NCBI RefSeq assembly: GCF_000613805.1 | Contig: NZ_BAJR01000016.1 | Span: 1 to 64,000, forward strand | From: Phocaeicola paurosaccharolyticus JCM 15092 | GTDB lineage: Bacteria > Bacteroidota > Bacteroidia > Bacteroidales > Bacteroidaceae | DNA: 64,000 nt | Reading direction: 5' to 3' | Made by a program: the position numbers and the translations under genes | Part shown: one piece after another, positions 30,516 through 61,052 of the stretch | Position numbering within the stretch: position 1 is the first letter of the stretch | How the letters are laid out: each line of letters starts with the position of its first letter | Notes under the pieces: model-generated | The model's input: the letters and a program-made list of their open reading frames with translations, nothing else | What the model was told of the DNA's origin: nothing | The model's database searches: none

Positions 30516-33157
30516 ATGGAATTAGCAAGTAAGTATAATCCCACAGATGTTGAGGGAAAATGGTATCAGTACTGGCTGGATAATAAACTATTCAGTTCAA
30601 AACCTGATGGTCGTGAACCATATACCATAGTTATCCCTCCTCCAAATGTTACAGGTGTTCTGCACATGGGGCACATGCTTAACAATACTATTCAGGATAT
30701 TCTTGTACGTCGTGCAAGAATGCAAGGGAAAAATGCTTGCTGGGTACCAGGTACTGACCACGCTTCTATAGCTACTGAAGCAAAGGTAGTAAACAGACTT
30801 GCTCAGCAAGGGATAAAGAAGACAGATCTTACACGCGATGAATTTCTTAAACATGCATGGGACTGGACTGATGAACATGGAGGTATTATCCTTAAGCAGT
30901 TACGTAGACTAGGTGCTTCTTGTGATTGGGATCGCACAGCATTTACTATGGATGAAGAACGTTCTGAGAGCGTTATAAAAGTCTTTGTTGACCTATTCAA
31001 CAAAGGACTTATATACCGTGGCGTACGTATGGTAAACTGGGATCCAAAGGCTCTTACAGCTCTTAGCGACGAAGAGGTAATCTACAAAGAAGAGAATAGC
31101 AAACTTTTCTATCTTAAATATAAAGTTGAAGGAGACAAAGAAGGACGTTACGCTGTAGTGGCTACTACCCGTCCAGAGACAATCATGGGTGATACAGCTA
31201 TGTGCATCAATCCTAATGACCCTAAGAACAAATGGTTGAAAGGTAAGAATGTTATCGTTCCATTGGTAGGAAGAGTTATTCCTGTTATAGAAGATGACTA
31301 TGTAGACATTGAGTTTGGTACTGGATGTCTTAAAGTTACTCCGGCTCATGATGTAAACGACTATATGCTGGGTGAGAAATACAACCTTAAGACCATTGAC
31401 ATCTTTAATGATAATGGAACAATAAGCGAGGCTGCAGGACTTTATGTCGGAATGGACAGATTCGATGTCCGTGAGCAGATTGAGAAAGATCTTGATAAAG
31501 CAGGACTACTTGAAAAAGTTGAAGCTTATACAAACAAGGTAGGTTTCTCTGAGAGAACAAATGTTGCAATAGAGCCTAAATTGTCTATGCAGTGGTTCCT
31601 AAAGATGGAACATCTTGCAAAACCTGCTTTGGAAGCTGTAATGAATGATGACATAAAATTCTATCCTTCAAAATATAAGAATACATACAATCATTGGATG
31701 GAGAACATAAAAGACTGGTGTATTAGCCGTCAGTTATGGTGGGGACATAGAATCCCTGCATATTTCCTTCCAGAGGGTGGATATGTTGTTGCAGAGAATG
31801 CTGAGGAGGCTCTACAATTGGCTAAGGATAAGACCGGTAATTCATCTCTTACTATAGATGACTTGCGACAAGATGAAGATTGTCTTGATACCTGGTTCTC
31901 ATCATGGCTATGGCCTATCTCTCTGTTCGATGGTATAAACAATCCTAATAATGAAGAGATAAAATATTACTACCCTACTAGTGATCTTGTAACAGGTCCG
32001 GATATAATATTCTTCTGGGTAGCACGTATGATCATGGCTGGTTACGAATATGAAGCGAGATGCCATTCAAAAATGTATACTTTACAGGCATTGTACGCGA
32101 CAAACTTGGACGTAAAATGTCTAAATCTCTTGGTAACTCTCCAGATCCATTAGAACTTATTGATAAGTATGGAGCCGACGGAGTTAGAATGGGTATGATG
32201 TTAGCAGCTCCTGCAGGTAATGATATCCTCTTCGATGATTCTCTATGTGAACAAGGACGTAACTTCAACAACAAGATATGGAATGCTTTCCGCCTGGTTA
32301 AAGGATGGAATGTTGCTGATATTGAACAACCTGAATATGCTGCTCTTGCAACAGAATGGTTCGAAAAACAATTAATTGCTGCAACTGCAGAAATAGAAGA
32401 CCTATTCTTAAAATATCGTCTTAGCGAAGCTCTTATGGTTGTTTACAAACTATTCTGGGATGAGTTCTCAAGTTGGTATCTGGAAATGATTAAGCCTGCA
32501 TATGGAGAACCTATTGATAAGAAAACTTATGAAAGTACTCTTCATTTCTTCGATGTGTTACTTAGACAATTGCATCCGTTCATGCCTTTTATCACAGAGG
32601 AACTTTGGCAACATATCCTTGACAGAAAAGAGGATGAAAGTATTATGACTGCTCAGGTTGAAAAGTATACAGAGAAGGAGTCTGACGAATCTATTAAATT
32701 CATTGCTTCATTCAACAAGATTAAAGAGGTAGTAAGTGGAATACGTACTATAAGACTTCAAAAGAATATTGCTCAGAAAGACTCTCTTGAGTTGCAGGTT
32801 ATAGCTGCTGATGCTGAGGTCTTGAAATATTCAGAAGTAATCAAGAAACTTTGTAATATATCGTCTATAAGTGTTATTGAACAGAAACCTGAAGGTGCAT
32901 CATCATTCATGGTAAATACCACTGAATATTTCATTCCATTGGGTGACCTAATTAATGTAGAGGATGAAATAAAGAAACTTGAGACTGAGCTGAAATATCA
33001 GGAAGGTTTCTTGATTAGCGTTATGAAGAAGTTAAGTAATGAAAAGTTTGTAAATAATGCTCCTGACAAAGTTATTGAGATGGAGAGAAAGAAACAAGCT
33101 GACGCTGAAAGTAAGATTTCAACATTAAAAGAGAGCATTGCTTCTTTGAATAAATAA
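30516..33157 (+). CDS. valS: valyl-tRNA synthetase (frame broken by one missing G)
   Basis: About 880 residues when repaired, the normal length. Class I synthetase that charges tRNA-Val. HIGH motif as HMGHM in [11 protein letters not shown], editing domain (residues about 190-340, [13 protein letters not shown]), KMSKS in [11 protein letters not shown], anticodon domain, and a C-terminal coiled coil (about 815-880). At 32055 GAAGCGAG lacks one G: adding it gives [16 protein letters not shown] and joins the frame 30516-32153 to the frame ending at 33157. Since the gene is essential and I see no second copy here, a sequence error is likelier than a null allele. Confidence 0.92.
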
Positions 33158-54295: not shown

Positions 54296-55339
54296 TTAGT
54301 TGTTTTCAGGACGAAGTTGCCTTACTGTCTCAGCAGTTCTCCACATTTCACTATCATGCAAAGCTTTAAGTTCTGCATTAAGTTTAACACGGTAATCAGG
54401 TTTAGAGTTACTGTCGATTGAGATCTGTGCTTCGTTACCACATTTTACGCTTGCATATAGTTTCTGCATCACAGGTTTGATAGCATCGTGGAATGGGCCC
54501 ATCCAGTCTAGTGCACCTCTCTGAGCAGTAGTAGAACAGTTTGCATACATCCAGTCCATACCATTCTTAGCAAATAGAGGCATAAGTGACTGTGTAAGTT
54601 CTTCTACAGTCTCGTTGAATGCTTCAGAAGGAGTATGTCCGTTTTCACGCAAAGTCTCGTATTGAGCAAGAAGAAGACCCTGAATAGCTCCCATCAAAGA
54701 ACCACGTTCACCTGTTAGGTCAGAAGTTGCTTCACGAATAAATGTTGTCTCGAACATATATCCAGAACCAATACCGATTCCTAATGCAAGAGTTTTATCA
54801 AGAGCGTGTCCTGTAGCATCCTGATAAACTGCATATGATGAATTCAAACCGCGTCCTTCAAGGAACATTGTACGTAGAGATGTTCCTGAACCCTTTGGTG
54901 CAACCATAATAACATCAATATCTGCTGGAGGAACAACGCCTGTGCGATCATTCCAAGTAATAGCAAAGCCATGTGAGAAATATAGAGCCTTACCTGCTGT
55001 AAGTTCTGGTTTGATAGTTGGCCATACAGACATAACTGCTGCATCTGAAAGAAGGCACATTATAATAGAACCTTTCTTACAAGCCTCCTCTATAGAGAAT
55101 AGAGTCTCACCTGGAACAAATCCATCAGCTACTGCCTTGTCAAAAGTCTTACCCTGACGCTGTCCAACGATTACATTAAATCCGTTGTCACGGAGGTTCA
55201 ATGCCTGACCAGGACCCTGTACACCATAACCTATAACTGCAATAGTCTCATCTTTCAATACTTCGCGTGCTTTTTCCAATGGAAACTCTTCACGTGTTAC
55301 AACGTTTTCTGTAACACCACCAAAATTCATCTTTGCCAT
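54296..55339 (-). CDS. ilvC: ketol-acid reductoisomerase
   Basis: 347 residues, class I. NADPH-dependent second step of valine/isoleucine synthesis. The Rossmann motif IGYGVQGPGQALNLRDNG is at about residues 36-53. Mg2+-binding acidic residues are expected in DLTGERGSLMGAIQG and SEAFNETVEELTQSL. Last gene of the ilv operon, 20 nt after the repaired thioesterase stop. Confidence 0.95.
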   Translation of the reverse strand: MAKMNFGGVTENVVTREEFPLEKAREVLKDETIAVIGYGVQGPGQALNLRDNGFNVIVGQRQGKTFDKAVADGFVPGETLFSIEEACKKGSIIMCLLSDAAVMSVWPTIKPELTAGKALYFSHGFAITWNDRTGVVPPADIDVIMVAPKGSGTSLRTMFLEGRGLNSSYAVYQDATGHALDKTLALGIGIGSGYMFETTFIREATSDLTGERGSLMGAIQGLLLAQYETLRENGHTPSEAFNETVEELTQSLMPLFAKNGMDWMYANCSTTAQRGALDWMGPFHDAIKPVMQKLYASVKCGNEAQISIDSNSKPDYRVKLNAELKALHDSEMWRTAETVRQLRPENN

Positions 55340-55359: not shown

Positions 55360-56108
55360 TTAAATAAATATAATTTTACTTCTTACTACCGTTTCGGTAT
55401 CATTTTTTATTATCTCTATATCATACTCATTCTCATTTCTCATCTCCCTATTGAAAGAGAGTTTGTCACCGTAGTAACTTCGGCTACATAAGCCATCTCA
55501 AATCTCTTTATTCTCTTCTCTTTGAATAGTTCAATAGGGAATAAGTCGAGGATATGTTCTATATATTTTATGGAGTTTACATGTCCATTTATATCAATAT
55601 CACTGTACTTAGCTACATAATCGGACAACCTCTCCGGATTATCGAGTTTTATACGTCCTGGTTTATCAATAGGACACTCTTTATCGGATACATAATCCAC
55701 TATCTTTCCACCATGAAGAGATAGTAGGTCAGCAGGTTTACGACTGGATAAGTCTATCATTGCCCATATAGAGCGAGCATATCCTATCGTTTTACCATCC
55801 TCATTAATTATCTCAAAGTTACGATCTGTAAATAGTCTGTATACATTCTCGACCCATGTACTGATAGTAAACTTCTTATACTGATGTGGCATCTCATCCA
55901 TCTCTATAGCAAGACGTGACAGAACCCATGTATACGAATTCTCATTAAGTTCTGCTATTCCAAATCCTCTGTCGGTAGAATGAAATCCGGCACAATTCAG
56001 CAGATGATTACCTAACACTCCCATTGTCAGCGAACCTGTAAAGTCAACATGAAAAGGTTCCGCTACAAATTGGTATGTTCCAACTTTATCACTGTTCATT
56101 TTTTTCAT
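55360..56108 (-). CDS. acyl-ACP thioesterase (frame broken by one missing base)
   Basis: About 249 residues. Hotdog-fold thioesterase that frees fatty acids from acyl carrier protein: VAEPFHVDFTGSLTMGVLGNHL, then DINGHVNSIKYIEHIL with the Asn-His pair of the active site. As sequenced the frame ends early at 55440 (AEVTTVTNS). One base added near 55479 gives AYVAESYYGDKLSFNREM and continues to a stop at 55360. The start is taken at MKKMNSDK (56108), overlapping ilvN by 20 nt. Its place between ilvN and ilvC is a Bacteroidales habit and may link branched acyl synthesis to membrane lipids (inference). Confidence 0.85.
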
Positions 56109-56655
56109 TTCTTGTTCGGGCATATTTTTCTTCGCGCATGCTAAGATACTCATTTACCCTTTCAAAACAGCTTGTTGTTATAGCAACTCTTCCTGAACGT
56201 ACAAACTGAAGTATGCATCCCAGTCCTTTCAGTTCGTCATAGAGTGCTGTAATATCCTCACTCATACCATTTTTCTCGACAATACAGAATACCTCGTTCA
56301 CCTCAACTATTCTTGCTGAATATTTTCTGATAACCTTTGAAGCCTTTGGATTACTCTGAAAATCAGGTGTAGATACTTTATAAAGAGCAATCTCGTGAAA
56401 GTATATCTCATCATCTGTAAAGTAATGTGCCTGAAGAACATCAATTTTCTTATCTATCTGCTTTACAACCTTCTCAATTATATCTTGAGTTGCCAAAGTG
56501 GTGATAGTATACTTATGCACACCTTTTATAGAGGAGGCTGAAACATTTAGCGACTCAATATTTATCTGTCTTCTTGTAAATACGGCAGTTATCTGATTAA
56601 GAAGACCTGCTATATTCTCTGAGTGGACTATTAATGTATATAGTTTCTTATCCAT
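56089..56655 (-). CDS. ilvN: acetolactate synthase small (regulatory) subunit
   Basis: 188 residues from MDKKLYTLIVHSEN (56655); the upstream Met lies inside ilvB and is rejected. N-terminal ACT domain (IAGLLNQITAVFTRRQINIESL) senses branched-chain amino acids and controls the large subunit. The C-terminal half matches the ALS_ss_C domain. Starts 11 nt after the ilvB stop, overlaps the thioesterase start. Confidence 0.92.
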   Translation of the reverse strand: MDKKLYTLIVHSENIAGLLNQITAVFTRRQINIESLNVSASSIKGVHKYTITTLATQDIIEKVVKQIDKKIDVLQAHYFTDDEIYFHEIALYKVSTPDFQSNPKASKVIRKYSARIVEVNEVFCIVEKNGMSEDITALYDELKGLGCILQFVRSGRVAITTSCFERVNEYLSMREEKYARTRNEKNEQ

Positions 56656-56666
56656 ATTATCTTTGA

Positions 56667-58363
56667 TTAGCATTCCAATAACATCTCGTTTACTGAACCT
56701 CCAGGAGGAGTCATAGGCAATACATTTCCCTCTTCTGCCACACAAACCTCCAATATGAATGGGCCATCACTGTTTACCATCTCATCTATAGCACTTAAAA
56801 GTTCATCTCTCTCAGCAACTCTTCTTGATGGTATGCCATAAGCCTCACCAATCTTCATATAGTCAGGGTTCATCATAGGTGTAAATGAGTAGCGCCTGTT
56901 GAAGAACATAGCCTGCCACTGACGCACATTGCCCAAGTAGTTATTATTCAGAACTATTATTTTTACAGGAGCATTCTGTTCCATAACTGTTCCCAGTTCC
57001 TGGATGTTCATCTGTATTCCTCCGTCACCCATAAAAACACACACTTTTCTGTGTGGTGCTCCAAAAGTTGCACCTATAGCTGCAGGAAGTCCGAAACCCA
57101 TTGTTCCAAGTCCACCCGAAGTTACCATACTTCTGTTTTTTGTAAACTTGAAATATCTGGCAGCCATCATCTGATTCTGCCCTACATCTGTTACAAGAAC
57201 AGCACTGTTGCCTGTTGCCTGGCTTACTGCCCTAACCACTTCTCCCATATTAAGTGGTCCCGATTCGGGGTTTATCTCTTTCGATACTACCTTTTCGAAC
57301 TCCTCTTCTCTATATTTATTGAAGCTATTTATCCATTCTGAATGATCACCCTTATTCATCTTATCGATGATTAGAGATAGAGTACGTTTACAGTTTCCTA
57401 AAACAGGAACATCAGCCTTTATATTCTTATCAATCTCCGAAGAGTCTATATCAAGATGTATAATCTTTGCCTGTTTTGCATAAGTAGCAAGCTTTCCAGT
57501 AACTCTGTCATCAAAACGCATTCCTATGGCAATGATAACATCGCATTCATTTGTTTTTACGTTTGGAGCAAGATTACCATGCATACCCAGCATTCCTTTA
57601 TTAAGACGATGATCTGATGGAATTACCGACAAACCAAGCAGAGTACAGCCGCAAGGGATATCACCTTTTTCAAGAAAAGTGAGCAGCTCATTCTGAGCAT
57701 TTCCAAGTTCAATTCCCTGACCAACTAGAGCAAATGGTCTCTTTGCACTGTTTATCAAAGCTACAGCTTCATCAACAGACTCATCCTCGGATCCGGATCC
57801 GGATCATAACTTCTTATGAAATCAAATACTTTAGGAATAAATTCACACTTTTCAACCTGAGCATCTTTGGCAAAGTCAAGTACAACCGGTCCCGGTCTTC
57901 CACTATTTGCTATATAGAATGCTCTTGACACTGCCCAAGAGACATCCTCAGCTCTACGGATCTGATAGCTCCATTTTGTGATAGGCTGTGTTATGCCAAC
58001 GAGGTCAACCTCCTGAAAAGCATCAGTTCCAAGGAATGGTGTTCCAACCTGTCCTGCTATAACTATTATAGGAGTACTGTCTATCATTGCATCAGCAATA
58101 CCTGTTATAGTATTAGTGGCACCCGGTCCACTAGTTACAAGACACACACCAACCTCACCCGACACGCGGGCAAAACCTTGCGCAGCATGTGCAGCTCCCT
58201 GTTCATGACGTACAAGTATATGGTTTAAAGTCTCGCGATGATCGTATAGAGCATCGAATACAGGCATGATAGAACCACCGGGATATCCGAAAATAGTCTT
58301 TACACCATTGTATTCCAACGAGCGCATGAGCGCCTCTGCTCCTGATATAGTCTCTTTACTCAT
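56667..58363 (-). CDS. ilvB: acetolactate synthase large subunit (frame broken by one missing G)
   Basis: About 566 residues when repaired. ThDP enzyme that condenses pyruvate to acetolactate. N-terminal PYR domain (GYPGGSIMPVFDALYD, the cofactor Glu in ILVRHEQGAAHAAQG), central FAD-type domain, and C-terminal PP domain with GDGGIQMNIQELGT for ThDP-Mg. At 57788 the run CCGAGGATG lacks one G after a repeated GATCCG stretch. Adding it gives DPEDESVDEAVALINSAKRP and joins the frames 57761-58363 and 56667-57758. Confidence 0.92.
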
Positions 58364-58386: not shown

Positions 58387-60186
58387 TTACTTAACTATCC
58401 TAACTCCACCTTTATCAGCCGAGCTTACCATACTTGCATATGCTTTTAAGCTCTTTGGGATAACTCTGTCACGTGTAATAGGTGACATCTCCCTCTCTGA
58501 TAGCTCTTTATCTGTAAGTCGTACATTTATCGTACGTGATGGAATATCAATATCTATTATATCACCATCAATAAGTTTTCCTATATTACCACCTGCTGCA
58601 GCTTCTGGAGAGACATGACCTATACTTAGTCCTGATGTACCTCCACTGAAACGTCCGTCGGTTATCAATGCGCACTCTTTACCTAGATGTTTGGATTTTA
58701 TATATGATGTAGGATAAAGCATCTCCTGCATACCAGGTCCACCTTTAGGTCCTTCATATATTATAACCACTACATCACCACTTACAACTTTTCCTGCAAG
58801 TATGCCATCGCATGCAGTCTCCTGTGAGTCAAAGACCTTTGCAGGTCCTGAGAATTTCCATATACTTTCGTCCACTCCTGCAGTCTTGACAACACATCCG
58901 TCCAGTGCAATGTTTCCTTTCAGTACAGCCAGACCACCATCCTTGCTGTAAGCATGTTGCAAGTCTCTTATACAACCTTCAGCTCTGTCGGTATCCAACT
59001 CTTTATATCTGTTATCTTGTGATCCAAGAGTGATATTGAATTTCCCTCCTGGTGCACTTGAATATATTCTCATAGCTTCACTATCAATGCTGTCTGTGAT
59101 ATCATATTTCTCTATGGCATCTTTCAGACTCAGTCCATCTACTCTTACTGTCTTAGTATCAAGTAATCCTCCTTTATCCAGTTGAGAAAGTATATTAAGT
59201 ATACCACCAGCTCTGTTTACATCCTGTATATGGTATTTCTGAGTATTTGGAGCAACTTTGCAAAGGCAAGGCACACGTCTTGACAACATATCTATATCGT
59301 CCATTGTAAAGTCAACCTCAGCCTCATGAGCTATTGCCAGAAGATGAAGTACTGTATTTGTAGATCCACCCATTGCAATGTCAAGAGTCATTGCATTCAG
59401 AAAGGCACTGCGGGTTGCAATAGATCTTGGTAGAACGCTATCATCACCATCTTGATAATATCTATATGCATTATCTACAATCAGCTTTGCAGCATCCTTG
59501 AATAGTTGTTTTCTGTTTGCATGGGTAGCCAATATTGTTCCATTTCCGGCTAAAGCTAATCCCAAAGCTTCATTCAGACAGTTCATTGAGTTTGCAGTAA
59601 ACATACCCGAGCAACATCCACATCCTGGACAAGCTCTCTCCTCTATCTGTAATACTTCGCTGTCGGAGACTGTAGAGTCGGCCGATTTTATCATTGCATC
59701 AATAAGATCCAGATGTTGATTGTTAAGTTCACCAGCCTCCATAGGTCCACCGGATACAAAAACTGTAGGAATATTAAGCCTCATAGATGCCATAAGCATA
59801 CCAGGAGTAATCTTATCACAGTTACTGATACATATCATAGCATCAGCCTTATGTGCATTCACCATATATTCAACACTGTCGGCAATAATATCTCTACTTG
59901 GTAAAGAGTATAGCATGCCATCGTGTCCCATTGCAATACCATCGTCAATTGCAATAGTATTGAATTCGGCAGCAAAACAGCCTAACTTTTCTATCTCTTT
60001 CTTAACTTCCTGGCCTATTTCATGAAGATGAGTATGCCCAGGGACAAATTGAGTGAACGAATTAACTATAGCTATAATAGGTTTGCCTATCATCTCTTTT
60101 TTCATTCCATTAGCCATCCATAGAGCTCTTGCTCCTGCCATTCTTCTGCCTAATGTACTTGCTGAACTGCGTAATTGGTTTTTCAT
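58387..60186 (-). CDS. ilvD: dihydroxy-acid dehydratase
   Basis: 599 residues, third step of the valine/isoleucine pathway. Fe-S-cluster cysteines are in [12 protein letters not shown] and [16 protein letters not shown]; later [19 protein letters not shown] near the active site. First structural gene of the operon, preceded by the attenuator region. Confidence 0.96.
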
Positions 60187-60206
60187 GTCAACCTACTGTT
60201 TAAATT

Positions 60207-60237
60207 AAAAAAAGCCTTACTCATAGCTGAGAAAGGC
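60207..60237 (-). terminator. attenuator terminator of the ilv operon
   Basis: 10-bp stem with one mismatch (in RNA sense GCCTTTCTCA / TGAGTAAGGC), loop GCTA, followed by seven T. Its 5' arm is also complementary to TGAGAAAGG at 60279-60287 in the leader, which would form the antiterminator instead. So this stop is conditional. Confidence 0.75.
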
Positions 60238-60271
60238 CTTTACTTATATTCTTAATTATATGTTACTATAA

Positions 60272-60358
60272 TCACAAACCTTTCTCATTCCCACGGCAGA
60301 CCACCACGAGGTTAATAATGTTAATAATAGATAGGTTTGAATAAATAGAAACAATCAT
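60272..60358 (-). CDS. leader peptide of the ilv operon (branched-chain amino-acid attenuation)
   Basis: 28-codon ORF (MIVSIYSNLSIINIINL, then VVVCRGNEKGL). Twelve codons are Ile, Val or Leu, with Ile-Ile-Asn-Ile-Ile and Leu-Val-Val-Val clusters. It lies between ilvD and the upstream region on the coding strand. The segment AGGTTTG at 60275-60281 can pair with CAAACCT (60333-60340) as a protector; TGAGAAAGG (60279-60287) pairs with the terminator's 5' arm. Scarcity of charged Ile/Val/Leu tRNA would stall the ribosome, free the antiterminator, and let ilvD to ilvC be read. Too short for usual gene finders. Confidence 0.8.
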   Translation of the reverse strand: MIVSIYSNLSIINIINLVVVCRGNEKGL

Positions 60359-60537
60359 AATATACTTCTTTTGTTGTTTACGATTGCAAAGTTACAGCGT
60401 TTTTTAAATATAGCAAACAAATCATCATCTTTTTTTGAAATAAATTATCAATCGTAACAAAACAAGGTCGAATATTATCATTTTATTACTTAATATATAA
60501 GTTAAATCACTTCAGACATTTAATTTATAAACAAAAA

Positions 60538-60663
60538 ATCCCTAATATCATCATGATATAGGGAAGTCAAACAAATAATGACTGAGCCGCCATTACTAAT
60601 ATAGAATCTGTACTTTATAGACAAAAAAAATCCCTAATATCATCTGCGATATAGGGAAGTCAA
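60538..60663 (-). repeat. tandem copies of a terminator-like hairpin
   Basis: Two near-identical hairpins: copy 1 at 60538-60571 and copy 2 at 60630-60663, both with ATCCCTAATATCAT / GATATAGGGAAGTCAA and a poly-A before (poly-T on the minus strand). They sit after the small secreted gene on the minus strand. The 58 nt between hold no gene. The second copy is adjacent to the stop; the first is a diverged duplicate. I see nothing else between 60359 and 60537. Confidence 0.7.
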
Positions 60664-60677
60664 TTAATTAGTCAGGA

Positions 60678-61052
60678 TTAATCCTGTGGCAGGCTTTCAA
60701 CGTATGAATCAAGACCTTTATTTCTCAAAGTCACATTCATAAGATATAAATATTTCTTATACTGTGCATCTGATAAAGCCTCTTTCATAAGCTTAAAGTT
60801 TCCATAAACAGCTTCACGTAATTTCTTGGTCTGCTTTGCATCTTTTGATAAATATGCACTGTACATCTTGTCTGAGAAGTAAGTGGTGATATTTTCTACA
60901 TCATTGTATTGATTTGATGTAAGATCCAAATACTTACCAAGTTTAGCTACGTTTAAGCTAATTGTCCAATCTTTTGCATTAACATTGTTGTCTGCAACTG
61001 CTGTAGCTGACACACCTAGTGCCACTGCAGCCATAATAATAAAACGTTTCAT
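60678..61052 (-). CDS. small secreted helical protein, Bacteroidales-specific
   Basis: 124 residues. Signal peptide cut after ATAVA-DNN. The mature part is alpha-helical (WTISLNVAKLGKYLDLTSNQYNDV) and resembles Spy-like or heavy-metal-sensing helical folds only in general shape. I do not recognise a named family. Preceded by an A-rich repeated leader (61087-61140) and followed by tandem terminators, so it is a stand-alone gene. Confidence 0.65.
   Translation of the reverse strand: MKRFIIMAAVALGVSATAVADNNVNAKDWTISLNVAKLGKYLDLTSNQYNDVENITTYFSDKMYSAYLSKDAKQTKKLREAVYGNFKLMKEALSDAQYKKYLYLMNVTLRNKGLDSYVESLPQD

Follow-up and report, generated by a model that had tools for sequence, protein, structure and literature searches.

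A candidate ribosome-stalling attenuator upstream of ilvD in Phocaeicola paurosaccharolyticus

The ilv locus and its leader region

We analyzed 64,000 nucleotides of the Phocaeicola paurosaccharolyticus JCM 15092 genome (contig NZ_BAJR01000016.1, positions 1 to 64,000), referred to here as the window. Near its end, on the minus strand, lies a run of ilv genes preceded by a short leader with several inverted repeats. The features considered here, in the direction of transcription, are as follows.

60414..60420, minus strand: TTGTTTG, −33 element of a putative Bacteroides-type promoter (sequence)
60387..60394, minus strand: TAACTTTG, the −7 box, fitting TAnnTTTG (sequence and genus comparison)
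60207-60358, minus strand: candidate attenuator region, 5′ of ilvD
60272..60358, minus strand: leader ORF, 28 codons plus TGA, ATG start, predicted peptide MIVSIYSNLSIINIINLVVVCRGNEKGL (sequence)
60333..60339, minus strand: segment 1 (protector), CAAACCT, pairing with AGGTTTG in segment 2
60299..60328, minus strand: control codons 11-20, ATT ATT AAC ATT ATT AAC CTC GTG GTG GTC (sequence)
60275..60287, minus strand: segment 2, TGAGAAAGGTTTG, which overlaps with the final codons of the leader (12 pairs formed with segment 3 on folding; inverted repeat)
60228..60241, minus strand: segment 3, AAAGGCCTTTCTCA, antiterminator 3′ arm or terminator 5′ arm (folding and alignment A1)
60207..60223, minus strand: segment 4 and T7, TGAGTAAGGCTTTTTTT, 3′ arm of the predicted intrinsic terminator (folding and alignment A1)
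58387..60186, minus strand: ilvD, dihydroxy-acid dehydratase, first gene downstream (NCBIfam NF009103, 1038.6 bits, and TIGR00110, 769.9 bits, both over the cut-off)
56667..58363, minus strand: ilvB, acetolactate synthase large subunit, frame-interrupted (ORFs 58363-57761 and 57758-56667)
56089..56745, minus strand: ilvN, acetolactate synthase small subunit (TIGR00119, 90.7 bits, cut-off 56.9)
54296..55339, minus strand: ilvC, ketol-acid reductoisomerase, presumed last gene of the operon (TIGR00465, 317.4 bits, cut-off 226.15)

Gene order and strand suggest that ilvD to ilvC are transcribed as one unit. An ORF between ilvN and ilvC resembles an acyl-ACP thioesterase by eye and gave no NCBIfam match. 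The second ilvB ORF aligned to positions 197-555 of TIGR00118 with 399.7 bits, which is under the whole-protein cut-off of 538.35. The ilvB frame changes at 57758-57761, close to a tandem GATCCG repeat; in the nine relatives examined, ilvB is one open frame of 566-585 codons. The frame change in the window may be a sequencing error or a real lesion. A valyl-tRNA synthetase-like gene (named by eye) is also split in the window, into ORFs at 30516-32153 and 32060-33157 that overlap at 32060-32153.

Between the gene upstream (60678-61052) and the ilv promoter are two near-identical tandem inverted repeats with T-runs on the minus strand (60526-60577 and 60618-60670), about 92 nt apart and absent from the output of a simple terminator scan. 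They are perhaps a duplicated terminator.

The leader ORF ends 85 bases before ilvD. As the earlier note had stated, it has 28 codons; its figure of twelve Ile/Val/Leu codons was one short, since the window holds 13 in 28 codons, or 12 without Leu28. A short ORF rich in codons for the end products is thus read directly from the sequence, and its translation is predicted. Upstream of it, TTGTTTG and TAnnTTTG were assigned as a putative Bacteroides-type promoter from the consensus. TAnnTTTG occurs no more than 110 nt 5′ of the leader ATG in 54/54 genus loci, compared to 85 of 1080 shuffled sequences, at a median distance of 28.5 nt (range, 1-36; 28 nt in the window). A −33-like element was also found at 54/54 genus loci by a lenient script test run without a control. 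A sigma-70 promoter scan is uninformative for promoters of the Bacteroides type. The rarity of Shine-Dalgarno sites that the earlier note had mentioned was borne out, with an SD-like 4-mer 5′ of the leader start in a single genus leader of 54.

The RNA after the control codons can pair in alternative ways. The protector CAAACCT (60339-60333) is complementary to AGGTTTG (60281-60275), and TGAGAAAGG (60287-60279) forms nine perfect pairs with CCTTTCTCA (60236-60228), both as first described; an inverted-repeat search recovered the second pair independently. The terminator is likewise present, its arm at 60223-60211 continuing into TTTTTTT at 60213-60207. Its stem carries one U·U mismatch, which the earlier note had missed. 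Placed between the leader and the first structural gene, the 3:4 hairpin with its T7 run is a predicted intrinsic terminator. A simple terminator scan of 60150-60720 returned 0 sites and so did not list it. A pattern search of the same genome for a perfect terminator palindrome also found 0 places; because of the mismatch, this pattern is unable to match even the terminator in the window.

Conservation, co-variation, and spacing

Relatives were then compared at the level of the genus and of the order. ilvD is present in 56 of 61 Phocaeicola genomes, that of P. paurosaccharolyticus included. At the 55 other loci, some of which have leaders identical to one another, a script found a leader and a terminator 5′ of ilvD in 54. 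A misplaced gene start and a 12-nt loop hid the 55th (L039) from the script, and its leader and terminator are visible by eye. Pairing of segments 2 and 3 beat shuffled sequences at P ≤ 0.05 in 51 of the 54 script-positive loci.

We aligned 45 sequences (alignment A1), comprising the window, 40 genus loci, and 4 loci titled Bacteroides; the 15 of 55 genus loci left out were mostly near-duplicates, and some had a script-placed ORF start further upstream. The leaders in A1 are homologous and share the core peptide NLAVLHIIRVVVV. At its eight core control positions, Ile, Leu, or Val is kept in 42-45 of the 45 sequences (43/43 at one position). The leader pN/pS was 0.43 in frame versus 0.54 and 2.5 in the shifted frames, and the coding signal is therefore modest. 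The GCCTTTCTC core of segment 3 is invariant across all 45 sequences. Paired cells made up 99.6% of the 3:4 helix, 92.5% of 2:3, and 84.8% of the 5-pair core of 1:2. The 2:3 helix showed no covariation within A1 (0 pairs changed on both sides); pair counting yielded nothing in this alignment, where the core hardly varies.

A side observation from A1 concerns columns 64-69, where two leader Val codons are nearly fixed as GTC (40/45) and then GTG (42/45), with synonymous change far rarer than at the Leu codons. It is possible that two Val tRNAs are sensed or that the RNA itself is constrained.

For wider comparisons we used a detector that calls a branched-chain amino acid (BCAA)-rich ORF followed by a terminator. 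We chose its thresholds on the loci of the genus, named, and phylum sets and then applied them to the order sample with a shorter maximum ORF. These sets overlap, as some named loci and order regions belong to genomes already represented among the genus or named loci. In the order sample, ilvD was matched in 84 of 197 genomes, and of the 83 matches in other genomes that exceeded the cut-off we used 80 (79 genomes; G266:C3, G288:C12, and G310:C3 were left out). A BCAA leader with a terminator was found in 55 of these 80 upstream regions, compared to 0 of 240 dinucleotide shuffles and 0 of 80 reverse strands. The conserved leader that the earlier note had proposed to look for in relatives is thus there in 54/55 genus loci and 55/80 order regions. 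The 2:3 pairing was also significant (P ≤ 0.05) in 45 of the 80 regions; 10 of the 55 matches had P > 0.05. In the remaining 25 of 80 regions no leader with terminator was found, and 10 of the 25 have a BCAA-rich ORF with no terminator by the detector criteria.

Of 80 named loci, the detector accepted 38, and in 28 of these P was ≤ 0.05. It accepted none of the 12 named loci that have a related IlvD and lie outside Bacteroidota (Spirochaetes, Desulfobulbaceae and relatives, Fibrobacter, and Akkermansiaceae; two have less than 200 nt of upstream sequence). One of 10 records titled Prevotella or Prevotellaceae was convincing (L078). From the phylum sample we took 40 upstream regions, a part of those with matches; 7 passed, 4 with P ≤ 0.05. 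The 1:2 helix was significant in 16 of 45 order-level loci, and the protector is, as far as these sequences go, the least general part of the element.

We asked of each segment 2 how well it matches its own terminator arm. Across 42 distinct arms, segment 2 scored 12.9 against its own arm and 10.1 against foreign arms, and 0 of 20000 permutations did as well; 38 of the 42 beat the foreign mean and 4 did not. With the 21 divergent arms that lack the common CCTTTCTC core, the scores were 11.5 and 8.4, again with 0/20000 permutations as good. One position takes part in both helices and can be followed in all three segments. Where segment 3 has T at this position, segment 2 has A in 22 of 31 order loci and segment 4 has A or G in 31/31; with A in segment 3, T is found in segment 2 in 8/9 and in segment 4 in 9/9. 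The eight A-T cases are spread over five family labels. Among the named loci with T in segment 3, 15/24 have A in segment 2. With C in segment 3, the expected G in segment 2 appeared in none of the 3 order loci and in 1 of the 6 named loci, where the motif reading is crude. The motif did not fit 11 of the 55 order matches and 6 of the 38 named matches, and as related loci are counted separately, these changes are not independent events. Read from sequence in this way, covariation of 2:3 is found between families only. The swap test, the three-way position, and the 45/80 significant regions together point to a 2:3 antiterminator that excludes the terminator.

The spacing of the element is also constrained. 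In the order sample, the distance from the first base of the last control codon to the start of segment 2 has a median of 13 nt (IQR, 12-15), and it falls within 10-17 nt in 89% of the 55 loci versus 17.5% of 2200 shuffles. If the last control codon occupies the A site, the ribosome would extend to about the start of segment 2, so that the spacing geometry, as measured on these sequences, fits the needs of a stalling mechanism. The leader stop lies near the start of segment 2 (IQR, −3 to +2 nt; range, −9 to 21; 45 loci); in the window, it is found at the opposite end of this segment.

These data bear on the simplest alternative, namely, that the region is an ordinary 5′ untranslated region with an insulating intrinsic terminator and that the BCAA-rich ORF is a chance codon run in AT-rich DNA. 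The 25 of 80 order regions that have ilvD but yielded no leader with terminator would agree with such an origin. Chance, however, predicts neither the contrast of 55/80 with the shuffled and reverse-strand controls nor a segment 2 that matches its own terminator arm, a fixed spacing, and control positions that remain Ile, Leu, or Val in 42-45 of 45 sequences. We consider this explanation very unlikely.

A second alternative accepts the leader and changes what stops the ribosome, which would be arrested by its nascent peptide rather than by a lack of charged tRNA. The A1 core NLAVLHIIRVVVV is conserved at residues outside the control set as well (N in 41, A in 32, H in 34, and R in 32 of 45), and the near fixation of the GTC (40) and GTG (42) Val codons could be taken the same way. 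RNA pairing may account for part of that conservation, however, and across the order the peptides have, by eye, little in common beyond their Ile/Leu/Val content. Peptide arrest is therefore improbable in our estimation, and we retain sensing of charged tRNA as the preferred reading.

Folding and the proposed mechanism

The 161-nt leader folds with −39.2 kcal/mol (z = −3.02), with 1 of 200 shuffles equally stable, into the 1:2 and 3:4 hairpins. In the window these hairpins have energies of −15.4 kcal/mol (1:2) and −15.2 kcal/mol (3:4), and the helix-only energies are −16.6 kcal/mol for 2:3 and −14.5 kcal/mol for 3:4. The earlier note had suggested folding the region with and without a ribosome on the control codons. 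We did so by masked folding, in which only the RNA ahead of the ribosome folds, with growing 3′ ends and with the ribosome assumed to occupy 12 nt counted from the start of the A-site codon.

For a ribosome placed at codon 12, a 12-pair 2:3 helix formed and persisted to the end. On Val18 or Val20, 2:3 formed first and was overtaken by 3:4 once segment 4 was nearly or wholly made, 3:4 being the final equilibrium. With Val20 in the A site, 2 nt were left before segment 2 under the assumed footprint. At the leader stop codon, 3:4 alone formed. The outcome thus agrees with what had been expected, namely, 2:3 with the ribosome held at the control codons and 3:4 with the ribosome at the stop. Geometry and masked folding together indicate in silico that, with the assumed footprint, a stalled ribosome would leave segment 2 free and a ribosome at the stop codon would cover it.

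Without a ribosome, the complete RNA folded into 1:2 (10 pairs) and 3:4 (13 pairs). When the RNA extended only as far as segment 3, the equilibrium fold was 2:3 and not 1:2, which implies that protection by 1:2 requires this helix to form first. Taken with the final 3:4 equilibrium at Val18 and Val20, these equilibrium folds imply that the switch must be partly kinetic.

We propose that a classical ribosome-stalling transcription attenuator sets read-through into ilvD-ilvB-ilvN-(thioesterase-like ORF)-ilvC in response to how far the Ile, Val, and Leu tRNAs are charged, and from the sequence evidence we put the probability of this reading at about 93%. RNA polymerase would start shortly 5′ of the leader ATG, and a ribosome would load on the leader with no Shine-Dalgarno site to guide it. 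When charged tRNA runs short, this ribosome would stall at the control codons with its front edge just short of segment 2, leaving 2:3 to pair and transcription to go on. If charged tRNA is plentiful, the ribosome would reach the stop codon and cover segment 2, and the 3:4 terminator would form. Should the leader stay untranslated, 1:2 could form and the terminator would form too. Termination, stalling, and the amino-acid signal are predictions of this model. The attenuator first read from this stretch is supported by conservation, pairing, spacing, and masked folding.

The same hairpins might instead belong to a metabolite-binding riboswitch or a protein-bound (PyrR-like) leader, with the ORF incidental. 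A weak Rfam PyrR match does overlap the leader (25.2 bits; gathering score, 54; E = 0.14), but an Rfam 15 search of the window gave 0 families at the gathering score, and families that differ in sequence still share the type of codon, the 2:3:4 alternative, and the spacing. We give little credence to such an RNA, about as little as to a chance ORF, and keep to the ribosome-stalling attenuator. Eight sub-threshold Rfam matches in all (PyrR, Bacteroid-trp, Yfr10, and others) were set aside as due to chance or shared architecture.

Other amino-acid leaders and known systems

Leaders of a similar kind precede other amino-acid operons in the P. paurosaccharolyticus genome. Bacteroid-trp (RF01692) matched at C83:50114-50250 with 61.2 bits, with the trp leader MNKNMQNMYWWRYLQLIKS. 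The leader MVIITTHHHHYPND and a terminator lie upstream of hisG (L260, C77, 1348-1453). Upstream of leuA is the Leu/Ile-rich leader MIISIHILLCGIIILLARSAGSECCA (L264, C75, reverse complement 1319-1452), and the leuA terminator, AGCCTTTCTCACT..AGTGAGAGAGGCT, resembles the genus ilv terminators. The prephenate dehydratase gene pheA is preceded by the Phe/Tyr leader MKSLYNTYFFFYYFYFSNKVKREFVCVR and a terminator (L263, C53, reverse complement 1325-1471). A Thr-rich ORF, MTIYYLFTTTTISMWNMATTMSTSTTMTLRG, followed by a TTTT run, lies 5′ of a thrA-like aspartate kinase (L261, C76, reverse complement 1275); the script found no terminator at this locus, and we therefore count a thr leader as possible only.

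In the genus, a leuA leader with terminator was found at 30/30 loci examined, with 2:3 at P ≤ 0.05 in 19 of the 30. A Phe/Tyr leader ORF was present at 31/31 pheA loci, 20 of which have a terminator, all 20 with 2:3 at P ≤ 0.01. The leu and phe scans used looser thresholds, with an ORF step run without a shuffle control, and covered 30 of the 35 genomes in which leuA exceeded the cut-off and, for pheA, 31 of 37.

These leaders speak to one more alternative, in which the ilv leader encodes a small protein with a function of its own and the hairpins serve only to end its mRNA. The in-frame pN/pS of 0.43 does indicate some coding constraint. Yet the leaders of leuA, pheA, hisG, and trp each contain the amino acid of their own pathway, the ilv leader sequence is, by eye, not kept between families, and its stop codon is located at segment 2. 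A small protein is the last explanation we would turn to, and a regulatory leader remains the one we adopt.

We lean slightly toward a broader proposal, that Bacteroidota control most of their amino-acid operons (ilv, leu, phe, his, trp, and probably thr) through leader peptides that attenuate transcription, with a ruler of about 13 nt set by the ribosome edge and without use of Shine-Dalgarno sites. This would be an order-wide, perhaps phylum-wide, regulon of which we found no description. Bacteroidales are major gut bacteria, and we found little in print on how their amino-acid synthesis is regulated. A sensor of tRNA charging that is readable from sequence and recurs before several operons would offer a testable regulon in genetically tractable bacteria. 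If the proposal is true, the first ribosome must reach the nascent RNA reliably in time, and transcription and translation would be closely coupled in Bacteroidota. According to the available part of PMC9976891, the ribosomes of this group fail to recognize Shine-Dalgarno sequences. Widespread ribosome-stalling attenuation, which needs fast ribosome loading, would argue for such coupling in a group of this kind.

The earlier note had singled out a complete attenuator of this type in Bacteroidales as worth describing. Leader-peptide attenuation itself is not new to Bacteroidetes, given the trp element RF01692, which appears in a table in the available part of PMC2864571, and the Flavobacterium psychrophilum work, whose available part reports strong clues of leader peptide attenuation 5′ of amino-acid operons, with conserved 5′ elements before pheA and hisG (PMC9723704). 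In the literature searched, mainly through titles and the starts of abstracts and with few subscription papers covered, we found no ilv attenuator described for Bacteroidales. A 2010 comparative study (Lopatovskaya, Seliverstov, and Lyubetsky) may list Bacteroidetes cases, which limits any claim to priority. The main text of PMC9723704, as far as it was available, contains neither "ilvD" nor "branched-chain". Small ORFs reminiscent of leader peptides are described for Bacteroides thetaiotaomicron in the accessible portion of PMC7366714, and PMC8305728, in the portion at hand, mentions his attenuation as general background only.

Among known systems, the Corynebacterium glutamicum ilvBNC attenuator, from what is available of PMC11857589, is alike in its position before BCAA genes and in its alternative hairpins; it differs in belonging to Actinobacteria, in the ilvBNC operon, and in its three-hairpin model. 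The putative F. psychrophilum attenuators belong to another group of the phylum. Bacteroid-trp (RF01692; in Rfam, the Bacteroidete tryptophan peptide leader) is of the same phylum and the same element type but has Trp codons and another terminator sequence. The ilv leader scored 23.7 bits against this family, below the gathering score of 49, and is therefore not a member of it.

The ilv attenuators of Enterobacteria (ilvGMEDA and ilvB) are alike in their BCAA-rich leader, in the alternative 1:2, 2:3, and 3:4 helices, in the terminator before the ilv genes, and, under the proposed model, in a single leader that senses three amino acids. The Phocaeicola leader differs in its sequence, which is not known to be related, in being without a Shine-Dalgarno site, and in its Bacteroides-type promoter boxes. 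It differs further in the order-wide placement of the leader stop, at or just past the start of segment 2, and in the gene order ilvD-B-N-x-C.
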